A stretch of DNA of 35,785 bases from Candidatus Kaiserbacteria bacterium (GTDB taxonomy: Bacteria > Patescibacteriota > Minisyncoccia > Phycocordibacterales > UBA2100): contig JACRFH010000053.1 of NCBI GenBank assembly GCA_016217975.1, positions 1 to 35,785 on the forward strand. The letters run 5' to 3'. Shown in pieces: positions 6,415-35,713 of the stretch. The position numbers and the translations under genes are program-made. The notes under the pieces were generated by a model. It made no database searches. It was not told the origin of the DNA and saw nothing but the letters and a program-made list of their open reading frames with translations. The first letter of the stretch is position 1; each line of letters begins with the position of its first letter.

Positions 6415-6771
6415 TCAGCCGAGCTTGCTAATCATAGCACGTAACATTTTGCTCACCTCAACAAGAAGTGTATTGGCTTCATGAATCTGGGAACCATCTA
6501 CAAAACCAAGCTGATTACTTATTTCTATTTGGGTCTCTAGTTCAGCCGAAGATCCATATGCCATTCTTAGAAAGTGCGCAAAATCTTTTGCCGTGCCGCG
6601 ATTTCGTCCCTCGGAGATATTTGATGGTATTGATACCGCTGCCCGTCTCATTTGAGATGCTAAGCCGTATATCTCGCGTGACGGGAATTTTTCCGTAAGC
6701 ATATAAACTGCTTTTACCAAGCTCATTGCCCGTTGCCAAACAATCAGATCTTTGTGTGATTTTGCCTGCAT
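6415..6771 (-). CDS. Four-helix-bundle (S23) family protein
   Basis: A 118-residue protein with the S23/four-helix-bundle pattern: DLIVWQRAMSLVKAVYMLTE, then FPSREIYGLASQMRRAAVSIPSNISEG, FAHFLRMAYGSSAELETQ and a final helix. The family was first seen encoded in intervening sequences of 23S rRNA genes and is related in fold to Avd of diversity-generating retroelements; its molecular role is not settled. Here it interrupts the secretion cluster between the PrgI-family gene and the accessory protein. It is closely bracketed by inverted arrays of CTAGAAG heptamers (6366-6396 and 6774-6803). The ATG is only 2 bases from the right array, so there is no ribosome-binding site. This placement suggests an inserted unit. 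A later start, MSLVKAVY, would delete the first helix. Confidence 0.85.
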   Translation of the reverse strand: MQAKSHKDLIVWQRAMSLVKAVYMLTEKFPSREIYGLASQMRRAAVSIPSNISEGRNRGTAKDFAHFLRMAYGSSAELETQIEISNQLGFVDGSQIHEANTLLVEVSKMLRAMISKLG

Positions 6772-6773
6772 TT

Positions 6774-6803
6774 CTAGAAGCTAGCAGCTAAAAGCTAGAA
6801 GCT
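6774..6803 (+). repeat. Heptamer array H6, right flank of the four-helix gene
   Basis: Units: CTAGAAG, CTAGCAG, CTAAAAG, CTAGAAG. It begins 2 bases after the ATG of the four-helix-bundle gene and ends 4 bases before the stop of the accessory gene. Confidence 0.9.
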
Positions 6804-6807
6804 TTTA

Positions 6808-7434
6808 TTACAGGAGCTGTTCGCGGTAGGGATCTCCCTCTACCATTTTCCTCTCGTGGCTGGCTTGCCCCGCTGTGTACGAGGCCGACATTGGCGCACG
6901 GACTGCCTTTGTATCCGGTGCAGGCGCGGGAGGCGTGGCAGGCAAGACCGCGGGGGCTATCGGCGTAGAAGGTACCGTCGGTTTCTTGGGTTCGCTAGAA
7001 GCTAGAAGCTGTAAGCTAGAAGCTGGTTCAGTCGGTTTGCTCCCGAGTATTTGCGTGCGCGAGGCCTCGATGTCGCTCACTACTTTTGCTTCGGCTGCGG
7101 GATGATCCAGTTCCCTTTCCAATTCTTTCCGTATCGGCTCGAATATCTCCGCGTTGATATCAGTCGCCAATTTTGCAGCGTCTTCTGCAGTAATGCCGAC
7201 ACCTTCTCGAATATCTTCGGAAAATGTCTCGACCGCCTGAATTCCGAGAATAGTGAGCATCACTTCGTTCTCGAGCCGTTGCCACTGGTCGACATGAAGC
7301 TTATGTGTGCTCGCGAGCGCTCGTAACCGCTCGGAGATATCAGTGGAAATGATAGAGTCTTGAACTACTTTCGGTAGCGCCAGAAACCGCTCCTTGAGCA
7401 CCTTGTCGATATCTATTTGTTGGTCATCGGCCAT
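6808..7434 (-). CDS. Soluble accessory protein of the T4SS-like cluster
   Basis: A 208-residue protein without a signal peptide or membrane segment. Residues 1-115 are helical and acidic (DIDKVLKERFLALPKVV and VETFSEDIREGVGI). Residues 120-205 are Pro/Ala-rich and probably disordered. Proteins with this opening recur in Patescibacteria secretion clusters, but no function is known. It starts 3 bases after the stop of the VirB6/TrbL-like gene. A heptamer array (6995-7024) lies inside the frame and encodes about ten residues, LQLLASS among them, within the disordered part; the array keeps this frame free of stops. The C-terminal end has the polar sequence EGDPYREQLL, which is a candidate docking tail. 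Confidence 0.6.
   Translation of the reverse strand: MADDQQIDIDKVLKERFLALPKVVQDSIISTDISERLRALASTHKLHVDQWQRLENEVMLTILGIQAVETFSEDIREGVGITAEDAAKLATDINAEIFEPIRKELERELDHPAAEAKVVSDIEASRTQILGSKPTEPASSLQLLASSEPKKPTVPSTPIAPAVLPATPPAPAPDTKAVRAPMSASYTAGQASHERKMVEGDPYREQLL
6995..7024 (+). repeat. Heptamer array H7, inside the accessory gene
   Basis: Units: CTAGAAG, CTAGAAG, CTGTAAG, CTAGAAG. A lone copy with no inverted partner. In the minus-strand frame it is translated as part of a disordered region. Confidence 0.9.
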
Positions 7435-7437
7435 AAT

Positions 7438-9747
7438 TTATGTGGTGTGTGGGGCAGCAGGCTGTGTTGGGTTTGTCGGGGGCTGCGGCGGAGGACGACC
7501 CTTTTTATCTTCGTCATCCAACCTCCTCCATTCTTTCATGGATTTCTTGAACTGCTCGTCCTCACGATAGCCCGTTATCTTTTTCCTGGCCAAGGCTTTG
7601 AGATTTGGGTCAATGATCCCTCGCGGCATGACATTTTCGATCACGCTGTCTGCGGCTCTCGCAGCACGAAGATCTTGTGCTTTTGCGATTCGCTGATGTC
7701 CTTCATCATGCGCCGCCTCTTTTTTCTCGCGATCTTCCTGAGCTTTTATCAGCGTCTTAAGACGATCATTGACACGGTCTTGCGCCGTCTTTATTGAACC
7801 GCCAGCTGCCTGCAGCGCTGTCTTGCGTTCGTCCTCCAATCGTCTGATGTCGGCCGGACTTCCGCCGCCCGGAGCGCTCTTGGCGGCCGCTATCTCCTTC
7901 TCGATGCGTGTAAGTTGTGCCAATTGCTCGTTGGCCTCTTTATGCTGATCGTCTGCGCGTTTTTCAGCGGCCCTTGCCTGGTCCCTTGTCGCTATGAGCT
8001 GCTCCTTCTGTCGCAAATCTTTGTCCGTATCTTTTGAAGCTTCCTTACGCACCTCCGCTATCTTTTCCTTGCTAGGCGCGAGTCCTCCATAGATGGTGCC
8101 GAGTTTCGCTGCTTTTTCGTCAACACGCTTGCCATACGGCGTACTCTTGAATTTGCCCACTTCAAGTCCGCCAAGACCGGGGATTTTGGCCGCAAACTTT
8201 GCCGCGGCGCTATTCATGAGGTTCCAATCTCTGTTAGCCCACTGCTCATTTCTATACTTGCCCCGAGCTGCCGCTCTTCTCTGTCTATCTGACAGATTCT
8301 CATTCTTCATATCTGCGTCGTACCCTATAGCTGCCCGCTTTGAATAGAAGCCAAAGACATTACCAACTCCCGCAGTGGCAAGCCCAAGACCAATCGCGGG
8401 AATTGCGGTAACGAATCGCAGTGCGCTCGCAGTTGAGAGTTTGTACGCGATTATCATTCCTGCGAGGAGAAGCCCGAGGATGACAAGGTAGCCAAGAATT
8501 CCCTGCACATTAGACGGATCACCCAAACTACCGCTGCTCATGAGCTGTGTGTGTACTCCTCCGGAGACGGTGATGGCGGCCCACAAGAACAGCATCAGCA
8601 CGGGGGCAAGGAGCGCATTTTTTATCAAATGATTCCACCATGCGGTCCATCCCATAGCTGCCCAATTCGGTATCAAATATGTTGCGAATGCGAGCGAGGA
8701 AAGAATAAGAAGAAGGATAAGCGTGACAAAACGACTGACGATAAGAAGCACGCCGAAAAGAAGTGCAAGAATAGCCCCGAGCATAAATAGTACCGATTCA
8801 ACTGTGTGGAGAAGTACCCATCCAAATGCCCCTGCGTTATTTTGACTATATATTTTATTTAGTGCAGTCGTTGAGTTCTGCAAACTTGCCGTATCGAGTA
8901 ATTTAGTGAATTGATCGCCGATGCCGGTTGCGTTGGCGGTCACGGCGTTCTTTGAAACCAACTGCGTGTAGATGCTTTGCGAGAAAGCATTGGATGCATT
9001 GATTACAATCTTTGTGAAGAGAAAACTGAAATTGATGAGTACCGCGACGACCAGAACGCGTGCGATGAGCTTTTTATGCCCGTATTCTTTAAGCCCAAGG
9101 ATGATACTTATCGCGATAAAGACGAAAAGGCCTATCATCATGATGTTGGCCAAGTCGCGCACGAATGTCCATACATTATTTATTCCATCGGAAAGATGCG
9201 GATATATTTCATTCCATCCCGATGATGTGGCGAATTGTTTGAGAGTGAGGCTAAAAAGTTGGTCCGTATATTCCAGGAGTCGTGCGAACATGAACATGAT
9301 CCCAGCGAGGACACTGAATGTGACTCGCAGTACCTGACACGCAATAGTCTCGCCTCCAAAATAGCCAGCCTCGGCGCATTCGGGCGGTTGGGTCGGATCA
9401 GTCGAATTCGCTTTTTGAGGCGTTGCCGCTGTATTGCTTTTCATCAGGGCCTTCGCTGCATCGGCGTCCTGTTGCAGTGTCAGACCGGGAGCGTTGCAGC
9501 CAATCGCTCTGGGACCATCGCACTGGCTACCAAGAATGCTCAAAAGATTTTGATCTCGTGAATCACAGGTGCCGCCGCCCCGGCACGCCGCTGAAACATC
9601 GTTGAAACCACAACTTCCTATGGCGATTCCCCCTGTTGGCGACACCAAACAGGCAGCTTCGGCGCGATGCGGTGAGATGAACAACATACATGCACTGACA
9701 CATATGCATGCAAGAGCGAGATTCTTTTTGTTGAAGAACGTCGTCAT
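7438..9747 (-). CDS. VirB6/TrbL-like polytopic membrane protein with coiled-coil tail
   Basis: A protein of about 769 residues. It has a signal peptide (ending HRAEAA), a Cys-rich extracellular segment, then at least seven hydrophobic segments (for example VLAGIMFMFARLL, MIGLFVFIAISIILGL, VLVVAVLINFSFLF, FMLGAILALLFGVLLIV, LGYLVILGLLLAGMIIAY). The last 280 residues form a charged coiled coil (KEEAREKRADDQHKEANEQ-like) and a Pro-rich end. This matches the large VirB6/TrbL-type channel component of Patescibacteria secretion-like loci. The chosen start (9745-9747, MTTFFNKKN) lies 2 bases after the previous stop with GGAAG about 8 nt upstream. An in-frame ATG nine codons earlier would overlap the upstream gene and spoil the signal peptide. 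Confidence 0.75.
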   Translation of the reverse strand: MTTFFNKKNLALACICVSACMLFISPHRAEAACLVSPTGGIAIGSCGFNDVSAACRGGGTCDSRDQNLLSILGSQCDGPRAIGCNAPGLTLQQDADAAKALMKSNTAATPQKANSTDPTQPPECAEAGYFGGETIACQVLRVTFSVLAGIMFMFARLLEYTDQLFSLTLKQFATSSGWNEIYPHLSDGINNVWTFVRDLANIMMIGLFVFIAISIILGLKEYGHKKLIARVLVVAVLINFSFLFTKIVINASNAFSQSIYTQLVSKNAVTANATGIGDQFTKLLDTASLQNSTTALNKIYSQNNAGAFGWVLLHTVESVLFMLGAILALLFGVLLIVSRFVTLILLLILSSLAFATYLIPNWAAMGWTAWWNHLIKNALLAPVLMLFLWAAITVSGGVHTQLMSSGSLGDPSNVQGILGYLVILGLLLAGMIIAYKLSTASALRFVTAIPAIGLGLATAGVGNVFGFYSKRAAIGYDADMKNENLSDRQRRAAARGKYRNEQWANRDWNLMNSAAAKFAAKIPGLGGLEVGKFKSTPYGKRVDEKAAKLGTIYGGLAPSKEKIAEVRKEASKDTDKDLRQKEQLIATRDQARAAEKRADDQHKEANEQLAQLTRIEKEIAAAKSAPGGGSPADIRRLEDERKTALQAAGGSIKTAQDRVNDRLKTLIKAQEDREKKEAAHDEGHQRIAKAQDLRAARAADSVIENVMPRGIIDPNLKALARKKITGYREDEQFKKSMKEWRRLDDEDKKGRPPPQPPTNPTQPAAPHTT

Positions 9748-9749
9748 AC

Positions 9750-11363
9750 TTATTGCTTCCAGCGCTGCTTCCACATATCGAGGACGGCGGCGTTATTGAC
9801 GTTGCACCAGCCGGTTGCAGGATCGGTCGAATCGGCCCAGGTCTTTACAGTGTTCGTTACGAGATCTTGCATCGTCGAGGTGATCGCGCCTTGCTGCTGC
9901 TGCACCTGCGTCACATCCCCTGCTTGGTGCAAGAGGCGCTGCGCCACGAGTTGGTCAAGCTGGACGAGCGCGAGGCGCTGCGCGTCCAAGGACGCGGTGT
10001 TGGTGATGCCCGCGATCAGCTTATCAATGAGCGAGAGTGCTTTCTGCGAAGCCTGCACATTTTGTATCGTCTGATTGGCAAGCGGCGTGATTTGCGCGGC
10101 GATGACGGCTTGCGATGCAACCGTAGTAGTCGCAACATGAAGCGTCCCGCCACCGACTGCGGGGCAGGTATTTCCGGGCGCTGTGGGTGGCGAGGAGCAT
10201 ACCTTGTTGATGATGAGATTCCAGCACTGATTCTCCGCGCTCCGCAGCTGATTTATGGTCGAGGTGAGAAGATTTGCAATTGCTGTCACGACCGAATAGT
10301 ACTGCTGCTCGACCGAGCGCGCGCCAGCCAAGACTTGGAGCGCGGCGTTTGCCGCGGCATTCCGGAGTCCCACGGCGCTCTCTGCGGTCACCTGATCAAG
10401 ATACGACGGCTGATTGCCGATCCTATTCATGATGCCGGAGAGTCCTTGATTCCCGGAGACAATTTGCGAGGCCAGGCCGGCAAAAAGCGCCCCGACCATC
10501 TGGTCAACATCATTGGCGTTCTGGACTCTTACGTATCCCGAGTTGATCGCGAGTTGCGTCGTCTGGCCTATAACCGAGCTTGGTGTCTCAATGACGCGGT
10601 TGCCGTTTTCGTCAATCGAGGTTTTGGCATAGTAGCCGCCGCTCGATTGCACTTGAAGGATGCGCTCCGCGATCGCGCTTGCGGCCTGGCTGTCTATGTA
10701 TTCTTTTCGGTAGATGTAGCCGAATACGGGATCGCATCTCGAATCTGCGAGGGCATCAAGCGCGGCCTGACTCGTGTCCCTCTGGCTCCAGACGTCATCC
10801 ATGTTGCCCTGATATGGGCAGGAGAGACGCTCCAAGGGATGCATGCTTGCAAGTACGCCGCGTGCGGTCGTTTGCAAGACCTGCGGCACGGTCTTTGTAA
10901 GCGAATCTGGCGAAGACTGCATGTTATTAAGGCCGAGAAGCGCAACACGTTGATATTCAGAACTGTCTTCCTGCTTTGGCACCTTTCTGAAAAGCGCACC
11001 GCCGTCGTCTCCGCCAGTGTTTGTGTTGGTGAGGATGATCTTGTTCATTGAGGTATTGGCGCTTTCGCTCATCCTGTCGACGATGCCGCGCAGAACGCAT
11101 TGCTGATAGACGAGGACTCCGGTGTTGAGCTCGACGGTGTAGTCGGCGACTGGTACGTAGACGCCGCCGGTCGCAGAAAATGCACCCACGGATTGCGGGA
11201 GCGCCGCTGTGCTGCGAGAGCAGCCGAAGATCCCCTCGCGTGAGAATTTGTACTGGTCGTTTGCTGCTTGCGCTGATGCGAGAAGTGGAAACAGTATCAG
11301 CACCATCATAAGCATTTTTCCTAGAAGCTGGACACTAGAAGCTAGAAGCTGTTTTTGTGTCAT
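9750..11363 (-). CDS. Secreted protein of the T4SS-like cluster
   Basis: A 537-residue protein with a signal peptide (MVLILFPLLASAQA) and a largely helical, Gln/Ala-rich body. Eight or more cysteines include SCPYQG and CSSPPTAPGNTCP, which suggests disulfides outside the cytoplasm. The fold is not recognised, but the position next to the VirB6-like gene suggests a secreted part of the machine. The first ATG overlaps the previous stop as ATGA (11360-11363), a sign of translational coupling. Between that ATG and a second ATG (11313-11315, Met17) lies a heptamer array that encodes QLLASSVQLLG. The original start may have been Met17, so the array either inserted into the leader or now forms the n-region of the signal peptide. 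Confidence 0.6.
   Translation of the reverse strand: MTQKQLLASSVQLLGKMLMMVLILFPLLASAQAANDQYKFSREGIFGCSRSTAALPQSVGAFSATGGVYVPVADYTVELNTGVLVYQQCVLRGIVDRMSESANTSMNKIILTNTNTGGDDGGALFRKVPKQEDSSEYQRVALLGLNNMQSSPDSLTKTVPQVLQTTARGVLASMHPLERLSCPYQGNMDDVWSQRDTSQAALDALADSRCDPVFGYIYRKEYIDSQAASAIAERILQVQSSGGYYAKTSIDENGNRVIETPSSVIGQTTQLAINSGYVRVQNANDVDQMVGALFAGLASQIVSGNQGLSGIMNRIGNQPSYLDQVTAESAVGLRNAAANAALQVLAGARSVEQQYYSVVTAIANLLTSTINQLRSAENQCWNLIINKVCSSPPTAPGNTCPAVGGGTLHVATTTVASQAVIAAQITPLANQTIQNVQASQKALSLIDKLIAGITNTASLDAQRLALVQLDQLVAQRLLHQAGDVTQVQQQQGAITSTMQDLVTNTVKTWADSTDPATGWCNVNNAAVLDMWKQRWKQ
11321..11350 (+). repeat. Heptamer array H8, inside a signal-peptide n-region
   Basis: Units: CTAGAAG, CTGGACA, CTAGAAG, CTAGAAG. 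A lone copy, encoding residues 5-15 of the secreted protein that starts at 11363. Confidence 0.9.
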
Positions 11364-34051: not shown

Positions 34052-35428
34052 CTAAAATGTCCTTTTGCTGTATGCGTCAATCAATTCTTGTGTCTCTTTT
34101 TGACTTCTCTTTTCTAGAAGTGCACGTGTAAGAATCGCTTTTGCGGTCATGTGATTCAGTTTTCCGCCTTCCAATACCTTCTTTGATGATTTAGCCAGCT
34201 CTCGTTTGTTGAGATTTGAAAGTGACACGTAGTAACGATCATCAGTCTCTCCCATGAGGCAGCGACTTACGTTCATTACGGACTTGCCCTTGAGTATTGC
34301 GGCTTTGACAGCATTTCGTATCGGATTTGGGGCATTGCCGAGTGCGTGCGATTTTACGATGACGCTCGGGAATCGGGGATCGAGTATCTTTGCGACCTCG
34401 TGCTCGATCGGATTGTTGTCACCAAGATCGATAGTGACGATCGAATTCATCGCGTCGAATATCTTTTTCGATGAATATGTTACAAGTTTACGCGAAGATC
34501 CTGGATTTCGCGTCTGCGCCTGCAGGTAACCGATTCTTGTTTGTGTTCGTTGCGGTGCGAAGAATGTAATCATACCCTCAAGCGTCGAGGGCTCTTCTTT
34601 CGGGTCAACTTTGATTAGGTCGCCTCCCCGATAGATCGTTTTGTTGAAGATATAATATGCTCCCGGCATGAGTGGAAGATGCGTGGCGAACGCGAGGTCG
34701 TGGAAATTTTGCGGCGCATCAGAATGTGTCTCGCGATGACTGCGATTCGCGCCGGATACTAAAATCGGCAGTGCGGTCTGATCAAAAAGGAAGACGTCGA
34801 GGAATGGCATAAGCATGTCTGTCGTATCCGTTCCGACTCCGGCAATCACTTGCCGCAACGGACTATCTGCGACTGTCTTGAGTAGGTGCGCAATTACTGC
34901 AGAGAAAATTGAGGGACGGAAATTCGATCCATCTGCGCTAAAGATTGGATAAAACTCTCCTCCGATAAGTTTGTCTATGTCCGTCACCCAGAAAAAGTGG
35001 CTTGCAAGATCTTTTTGTATAGATTTGGTTTGCGCAAATTCCATCTCGAGTCTTTCGCGTACACGATCTTCGGACTTGCTTGATGCTTCTATTTTCGCGA
35101 GAGCGTCATCATCGATGCTTCCGGTTCCACGGAGTCCTTCTTTCGTCGCAATCATGTCCCACGTACCGCCTATCTTAAGGAACGTTACGTCCGTCGGTGT
35201 GTTTCTGTTGCCAAGTCCATGAATATCCGAAGCAAAGAGTTCCGCTGACGATATTTCAAGTGCGTGCCCTAATTTGGCAATTGTTTCCAAAGTGATATTA
35301 CGCTCCCCTTTTTCGACGCCGGATATGAATGATCGATGCAGTCCGGATTTCTTGGCCAGATTCACTTGCGTAAGGCCGCGCTTTTGTCGTATATGGACTA
35401 AATTGGCCCCAAACTGTTTATTCGTCAT
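34052..35428 (-). CDS. XRE helix-turn-helix fused to an asparaginase-like domain
   Basis: A 458-residue protein. Residues 5-65 are an XRE-type HTH (LVHIRQKRGLTQVNLAKKSGLHRSFISGVEKGERNITLE). From about 80 the sequence follows the type I/II asparaginase (and GatD) fold. The first catalytic Thr is in KIGGTWDM (Thr89), the second pair in GVGTDTTD (Thr200, Asp201), PILVSGANRS matches the family V-G-A-M-R-P segment, and the catalytic Lys is in DLIKVD (Lys273). The C-terminal domain has SHALGNAPNP, matching the GxGNxN region. All four catalytic positions are intact, with a Val where the family His usually precedes Gly-Thr-Asp. This suggests an amidohydrolase joined to DNA binding, or a regulator that senses an amide. 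TATAAG precedes the ATG by 6 bases. Confidence 0.8.
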   Translation of the reverse strand: MTNKQFGANLVHIRQKRGLTQVNLAKKSGLHRSFISGVEKGERNITLETIAKLGHALEISSAELFASDIHGLGNRNTPTDVTFLKIGGTWDMIATKEGLRGTGSIDDDALAKIEASSKSEDRVRERLEMEFAQTKSIQKDLASHFFWVTDIDKLIGGEFYPIFSADGSNFRPSIFSAVIAHLLKTVADSPLRQVIAGVGTDTTDMLMPFLDVFLFDQTALPILVSGANRSHRETHSDAPQNFHDLAFATHLPLMPGAYYIFNKTIYRGGDLIKVDPKEEPSTLEGMITFFAPQRTQTRIGYLQAQTRNPGSSRKLVTYSSKKIFDAMNSIVTIDLGDNNPIEHEVAKILDPRFPSVIVKSHALGNAPNPIRNAVKAAILKGKSVMNVSRCLMGETDDRYYVSLSNLNKRELAKSSKKVLEGGKLNHMTAKAILTRALLEKRSQKETQELIDAYSKRTF

Positions 35429-35485: not shown

Positions 35486-35599
35486 GCCTCGGGCCATAAG
35501 CCCGATTGATAGTGCCCTCAGGAACAGCTTCCCTACCGGGTGTTTGGTCAGTATGTATACGGACCAGACACCCCGTGAGGGAGAAAGGAGGGCACCATC
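35486..35599 (+). promoter_or_regulatory. Structured leader with possible Shine-Dalgarno sequestration
   Basis: Hairpin 1 at 35489-35505 (TCGGGC, loop, GCCCGA). Hairpin 2 at 35537-35575 has a 12-13 bp stem with one bulged C and one G-U pair. GTGCCCTC at 35512-35519 is exactly complementary to GAGGGCAC at 35588-35595, which contains the Shine-Dalgarno site of the 37-residue peptide. The overlapping CCCTCA (35515-35520) can instead pair with TGAGGG at 35576-35581, enclosing hairpin 2. The two pairings exclude each other. A TATATA box at 35475-35480 could start the transcript. No known riboswitch class is recognised. Confidence 0.45.
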
Positions 35600-35713
35600 A
35601 TGAGTCGATGGTTGCTCTTTGTAGCGGCAATGATTGTCCTATTCTCTTTGAATATCGAAATGCAAAAGTCAGCGCACGCTGAACACACCGCAAAGATCAC
35701 GGGAGGTATCTGA
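35600..35713 (+). CDS. 37-residue single-span membrane peptide
   Basis: A small ORF behind a strong GGAGGG site (8 bases before the ATG). Product: MSRWLLFVAAMIVLFSLNIE... with one hydrophobic segment (residues 4-17), then a short polar tail with two His residues (SAHAEHTAKITGGI). This resembles a small secreted or membrane peptide with a possible signal cleavage at SAHA. The upstream region is structured and may control translation (see the leader feature). The window ends 72 bases later with no further gene visible. Function unknown. Confidence 0.55.
   Translation: MSRWLLFVAAMIVLFSLNIEMQKSAHAEHTAKITGGI

Follow-up and report, generated by a model that had tools for sequence, protein, structure and literature searches.

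An XRE-type helix-turn-helix domain fused to a divergent class-1 asparaginase in CPR bacteria: a candidate one-component regulator

Introduction

Why would an asparaginase carry a DNA-binding domain of its own? This question is raised by a gene of Candidatus Kaiserbacteria bacterium (assembly GCA_016217975.1), one of the tiny, uncultured bacteria of the Candidate Phyla Radiation (CPR). The gene lies close to the end of contig JACRFH010000053.1. We analyzed a stretch of 35,785 nucleotides of this contig (positions 1 to 35,785, forward strand), referred to as the window in the following. A preliminary description of the gene, made from the sequence alone, had recognized an XRE-type helix-turn-helix (HTH) joined to an asparaginase domain, and had proposed either a regulator that senses or hydrolyzes an amide or a toxin-like enzyme with its own repressor.

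Fusions of HTH domains with enzymes are a known route to regulators. BzdR, for instance, is a working regulator in which an XRE HTH is fused to a shikimate-kinase domain (PMC3602430). In Bacillus subtilis, an HTH protein, the repressor AnsR, controls the asparaginase gene (PMC10938345). Class-1 asparaginases use a catalytic set consisting of a first Thr, a Tyr, a second Thr, an Asp and a Lys; in type-1 enzymes, it is the partner subunit that contributes the catalytic Tyr, from a C-terminal loop (PMC8256714), as exemplified by Tyr308' of the guinea-pig enzyme (PMC12128190).

Domain composition and predicted structure

The open reading frame starts with ATG, and all three Pfam matches of its product exceed their gathering cut-offs: HTH_3 with 47.8 bits (cut-off 23), Asparaginase (PF00710) with 38.6 bits (22.5) and Asparaginase_C (PF17763) with 39.5 bits (34.6; Table 1). 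In the host assembly, PF00710 matches this gene alone.

In the AlphaFold2 model (mean pLDDT 79.1, pTM 0.74), a five-helix HTH is followed by a low-confidence linker and a two-domain α/β protein. The HTH is modeled with confidence (mean pLDDT of 76–94 in 10-residue blocks over residues 1–60), and the linker to the asparaginase part is predicted to be disordered. Both Foldseek (E-value 3e-13) and VIA-align match residues ~77–456 to class-1 asparaginases, with VIA-align Z-scores of 25.8 for guinea-pig asparaginase 1 (rmsd 3.2 over 303 residues), up to 25.5 for E. coli asparaginase II and about 24.9 for E. coli asparaginase I (AnsA). The union of an XRE HTH with an asparaginase domain is thus borne out by Pfam and by the fold: past residue 80, the model holds a complete two-domain class-1 asparaginase rather than an unrelated fold.

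The relationship to characterized enzymes is distant. In structural alignments, the identity to solved asparaginases is 14–20%, and the ligand need therefore not be free asparagine. With the type I model TIGR00519, whose cut-off is 260.5, the protein scores 43.6 bits (22–44 bits across the family described below), while canonical asparaginases of CPR bacteria score 302–312; with the GatD model TIGR02153, it reaches 31 bits against 324. Even PF17763 remains slightly below its cut-off in four relatives (L029, L036, L037 and L030). Judging from these scores, the asparaginase domain belongs to a divergent subfamily, far below the cut-offs of the type I, type II and GatD models.

Table 1. Features of the fused gene in window coordinates
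Feature	Position	Strand	Evidence or remark
Whole gene, XRE HTH + class-1 asparaginase fold	34052..35428	-	458 aa
HTH_3, residues 13-64; nearest: restriction-modification controller proteins	35237..35392	-	Pfam, phmmer, PADLOC
Linker, residues 65-80	35189..35236	-	pLDDT <50 at residues 67-75
Asparaginase N-terminal (catalytic) domain, residues 81-276	34601..35188	-	Pfam, fold
Thr89 (GGT 87-89), first catalytic Thr (EcAII Thr12, guinea-pig Thr19)	35162..35164	-	invariant in 12/12 aligned sequences
Family-specific insert, ~residues 104-155, between gating loop and D-S-S segment	34964..35119	-	alignment
D166-G167-S168; counterpart of Asp84 retained, Gly in place of Ser85	34925..34933	-	alignment
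Thr200-Asp201 (GTDT 199-202), catalytic	34826..34831	-	invariant in 12/12
Lys273 (DLIK 270-273), catalytic	34610..34612	-	invariant in 12/12
Asparaginase C-terminal domain, residues 346-449	34082..34393	-	Pfam
Tyr399, equivalent to guinea-pig Tyr308' (type-1 position, from partner subunit)	34232..34234	-	invariant in 8/8 family proteins; aligned to 4r8k

The active site

The motifs named in the preliminary description (GGT, GTDT, DLIK and, at residues 226–229, GANR) are all in place. Thr89, Thr200, Asp201 and Lys273 correspond to Thr19, Thr116, Asp117 and Lys188 of the guinea-pig enzyme and are invariant in the eight proteins of the family as well as in the outgroup asparaginases. The set is completed by Tyr399, which the preliminary description had not mentioned and which is likewise found in all eight family members. 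In a profile-to-PDB alignment, this tyrosine falls on the Tyr of the segment 'TPGYATSL' of 4r8k, which is Tyr308 when counted from Thr116. The protein therefore presents the set of a type-1 asparaginase: a Thr, a Thr-Asp pair, a Lys and a Tyr in the C-terminal domain. We also considered a type-2 asparaginase with a Tyr in the gating loop, but rejected this assignment, as there is no conserved Tyr in this loop and the conserved one occupies the type-1 position.

The substrate pocket is less well preserved. Asp166, the equivalent of the amine-binding Asp84, is retained, but the substrate-carboxylate Ser (Ser85 in the guinea-pig enzyme) is replaced by Gly167, and this in the window protein only; the other seven family members have Ser. 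For this reason, the term 'intact', which had been applied to the asparaginase domain, fits the catalytic set but not the whole substrate pocket, and the activity or the ligand of the window protein itself may differ. Furthermore, an insert of about 50 residues ahead of the D-S-S segment has no counterpart in the asparaginases of E. coli or in the canonical ones of CPR bacteria.

Distribution and history of the family

Five loci (L029–L033) were retrieved when 84,980 species genomes were scanned. Reading their full frames showed that one, L029 from a Ca. Paceibacterota genome, carries the same HTH, whereas the other four do not; of these, L033 is the same protein as one in a genome of the window's own genus (G011). 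Two further fused genes came from a sample of the class: L036 and L037, whose hosts belong to different genera of the same family. In total, the family thus comprises four fused proteins (the window protein, L029, L036 and L037) and four HTH-less ones (L030–L033), so that the domain order of the window gene recurs in three other CPR genomes.

The family is rare: members were found in two of 52 genomes of the genus and in one of 397 in the order sample, three strong matches came from the 384 genomes of the class sample, and the 380 genomes of the phylum sample held no member besides the window's own. Across these four samples, strong matches are confined to the genomes G000, G011, G844 and G956; the weak ones (L035, L039–L041 and L045–L047) are presumably ordinary asparaginases. 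Apart from L032, which lies in a bin titled just 'bacterium', all members found belong to CPR bacteria. A phage or virus origin was considered and rejected, given that no relative was found in the phage and viral collections searched, to which this absence is limited. A match on a Microvirga plasmid (residues 7–188) was also discarded: it is a 236-residue open reading frame with an HTH and an unrelated C-terminal part.

In a tree whose outgroup consisted of asparaginases from E. coli and of ordinary ones from CPR bacteria, all eight proteins form one clade (support 100/100), within which the four fused proteins form a clade of their own (100/100), with the HTH-less lineages branching outside. 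This is most simply read as a single gain of the HTH by an HTH-less lineage. The sole pair that could be tested for selection is L036–L037, the others being too diverged. Its overall dN is 0.14 at a dS of ~2.8, which is saturated; taken separately, the HTH has a dN of 0.09 and the enzyme part one of 0.15. Both parts are under strong purifying selection in this pair.

The HTH domain and the upstream region

The closest solved relatives of the HTH in a phmmer search are C.AhdI (6e-11) and C.BclI (3e-10). Its best PADLOC matches are likewise control proteins (Control_protein, 1.7e-14), and all PADLOC matches on the protein cover the HTH only. Such controller proteins of restriction-modification systems are autoregulators. 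C.AhdI and C.BclI are single domains of ~80 residues coupled to restriction genes, whereas the window HTH is fused to an asparaginase. The model NF006015, which describes BzdR-type proteins, also matches the HTH only (28.6 against 204), and the HipB/Y4mF model TIGR03070 reaches 44.9 bits against a cut-off of 71.65. Similar HTHs further occur within open frames of ~500–600 residues in many related genomes (e.g. G048 C6:5007–5165 and G037 C1:395525–395686), apparently as part of another HTH–enzyme or HTH–effector family.

The conserved operator envisaged in the preliminary description did not emerge: no significant shared block or motif was found upstream of the four fused genes. A 36-bp palindrome at 35538–35573 is present in a single copy in the host genome, and nothing resembling it is visible upstream of the relatives.

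A small open reading frame diverges from the fused gene, and the region that separates the two contains a 95-nt imperfect inverted repeat (35506–35600). RNA from either strand of this repeat is predicted to fold into a long hairpin (about -52 kcal/mol; z-score of -5.4 for the surrounding 176 nt). The hairpin has no match in Rfam, and its 17-bp inner arms are absent elsewhere in the host assembly. The divergent frame of ~37 codons follows directly (from ~35601 onward, plus strand), with a good ribosome-binding site (AAGGAGG), the start MSRWLLFVAAMIVLF and a signal-peptide-like sequence.

Genomic context

In the window, the fused gene converges with a gene for a putative HAD-type hydrolase, assigned on the basis of sequence motifs, and the contig ends 357 bases upstream of the fused gene. 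The other fused genes apparently stand alone. The neighbors of the fused genes, like those of the HTH-less L031, which adjoins an ATP synthase operon, give no metabolic hint. The remaining three HTH-less genes have more telling surroundings: the gene orders are ligA–asparaginase–gatC–gatA in L033, murT–gatD–asparaginase–gatC–gatA in L032 and femAB–asparaginase–femAB in L030, with the families confirmed in the latter two. These three loci are suggestive of a tie between the HTH-less relatives and amide donors or users of aminoacyl-tRNA. The position of the L030 gene between two FemAB-family genes (6757–10068) hints at a possible cell-wall link.

In the host genome of the window, gatC and gatA are found elsewhere, with no asparaginase beside them. 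Between these two genes (L049, host contig C13) lies a small open reading frame resembling RelE/ParE toxins (8044–8367), which has no match among the PADLOC defence models.

Proposed function and alternative readings

We favor the reading of a trigger-enzyme-like one-component regulator, which controls its own gene and whose ligand, sensed and probably also hydrolyzed, is asparagine or a related amide; to our mind, this reading has about an even chance of being correct. The asparaginase part would form an intimate dimer, as class-1 enzymes need one for a complete active site, and this would bring two HTH domains together on flexible linkers. Given that the partner subunit completes each active site in class-1 asparaginases (PMC8256714), ligand binding would be coupled to the dimer, and the HTH pair could read ligand occupancy. 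Bound asparagine or a related amide would close the active site and thereby alter the spacing of the HTH pair or its affinity for an operator, which is probably that of the protein's own gene. Asn acts as an allosteric regulator of E. coli asparaginase I (PMC8256714), which sets a precedent for ligand control. The enzyme part has probably kept the capacity to deamidate its ligand, and the output would then follow the asparagine/amide pool that is also used by GatCAB and cell-wall amidation. Of the earlier proposals, a regulator that senses or hydrolyzes an amide is accordingly the one that we consider most likely, and we infer it from the features above.

The domain could instead bind an amide ligand without turnover and act in a pure transcription factor, a possibility that we see as the main rival although we rate it as unlikely overall. 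BzdR took such a path from enzyme to regulator, on which the loss of activity was described as essential (PMC3602430), and Gly167 lends this reading more weight for the window protein itself. However, some loss of catalytic residues would be expected in this case, whereas the four fused proteins retain every one of them, Tyr399 included, and the Ser is kept in three of the four. It is because of these retained residues, unlike in BzdR, that we favor a bifunctional, autoregulating protein.

It is less probable still that the substrate is something other than free Asn, for instance an amide of peptidoglycan or some other amidated metabolite, and that the HTH regulates genes of the cell wall or tRNA amidation rather than its own. 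The murT–gatD, gatC–gatA, ligA and femAB neighbors would fit such a role, as would the insert ahead of the substrate-binding segment and the scores far below the cut-offs of the asparaginase models. Yet this context is confined to the four HTH-less genes, whose surroundings vary, and the residues that hold Asn are largely retained: the equivalents of Asp84 and Asp117 throughout and that of Ser85 in seven of the eight proteins. As these residues bind the amino and carboxylate groups of Asn, they point to a free amino acid.

We regard it as highly improbable that the HTH is a mere module for dimerization or localization with no regulatory role. While the failure to find an operator upstream of the fused genes would be in line with this, the domain is confidently modeled, and its dN is lower than that of the enzyme part. 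Even less credit is due to the second earlier proposal, a toxin-like enzyme with its own repressor in the manner of toxin-antitoxin systems: the resemblance of the HTH to HipB/Y4mF antitoxins and the patchy distribution might suggest it, but the HipB/Y4mF score falls short of its cut-off, PADLOC recognizes the HTH alone, and the HTH-less relatives adjoin housekeeping genes and have no toxin partner. Lastly, although the gene lies close to a contig end, an assembly or gene-calling artefact that joined two genes can practically be dismissed, because the fusion recurs in three other, independent genomes, where the domain order is the same and the frame uninterrupted, and as a single clade.

Relation to known systems

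The two-domain fold, the Thr/Thr-Asp/Lys set and the Tyr of the C-terminal domain are common to the window protein and to class-1 type-1 asparaginases such as E. coli AnsA and guinea-pig asparaginase 1, to which it adds the N-terminal HTH and the insert and from which it differs by the Gly at the position of the substrate Ser. An asparaginase-type domain is also found in archaeal GatD of the GatDE complex, and a GatD structure (1zq1) is the best single profile match among solved structures; however, GatD has its own N-terminal domain where the window protein has the HTH, and the host is of the GatCAB type (gatC, gatA). In its layout, the protein resembles BzdR, which likewise consists of an XRE HTH, a linker and an enzyme-derived C-terminal domain, but this domain is a shikimate kinase that has lost catalysis, whereas the window protein has an asparaginase with its catalytic residues retained. 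AnsR and AnsA, finally, are two separate proteins, where the window gene encodes one polypeptide.

Our literature search found no paper on an HTH–asparaginase fusion, and none of the profile libraries searched describes an HTH–enzyme regulator built from an asparaginase. In the sources searched, such a counterpart to BzdR thus appears to be undescribed.

Implications

Small genomes that are related to each other, in one case as members of a single genus, harbor either the HTH-bearing clade or its HTH-less sisters, and all of these proteins have kept their catalytic residues, which makes the step from enzyme to regulator directly testable. More tentatively, and we hold this for possible rather than likely, an active asparaginase may serve as its own repressor and thereby set the shared asparagine/amide pool for GatCAB and peptidoglycan amidation, which would make it a new metabolic gauge of CPR bacteria. 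If true, enzyme activity and gene control would be united in one molecule. CPR bacteria are thought to rely on partners for amino acids, and a sensor of asparagine or a related amide would therefore bear on their way of life.
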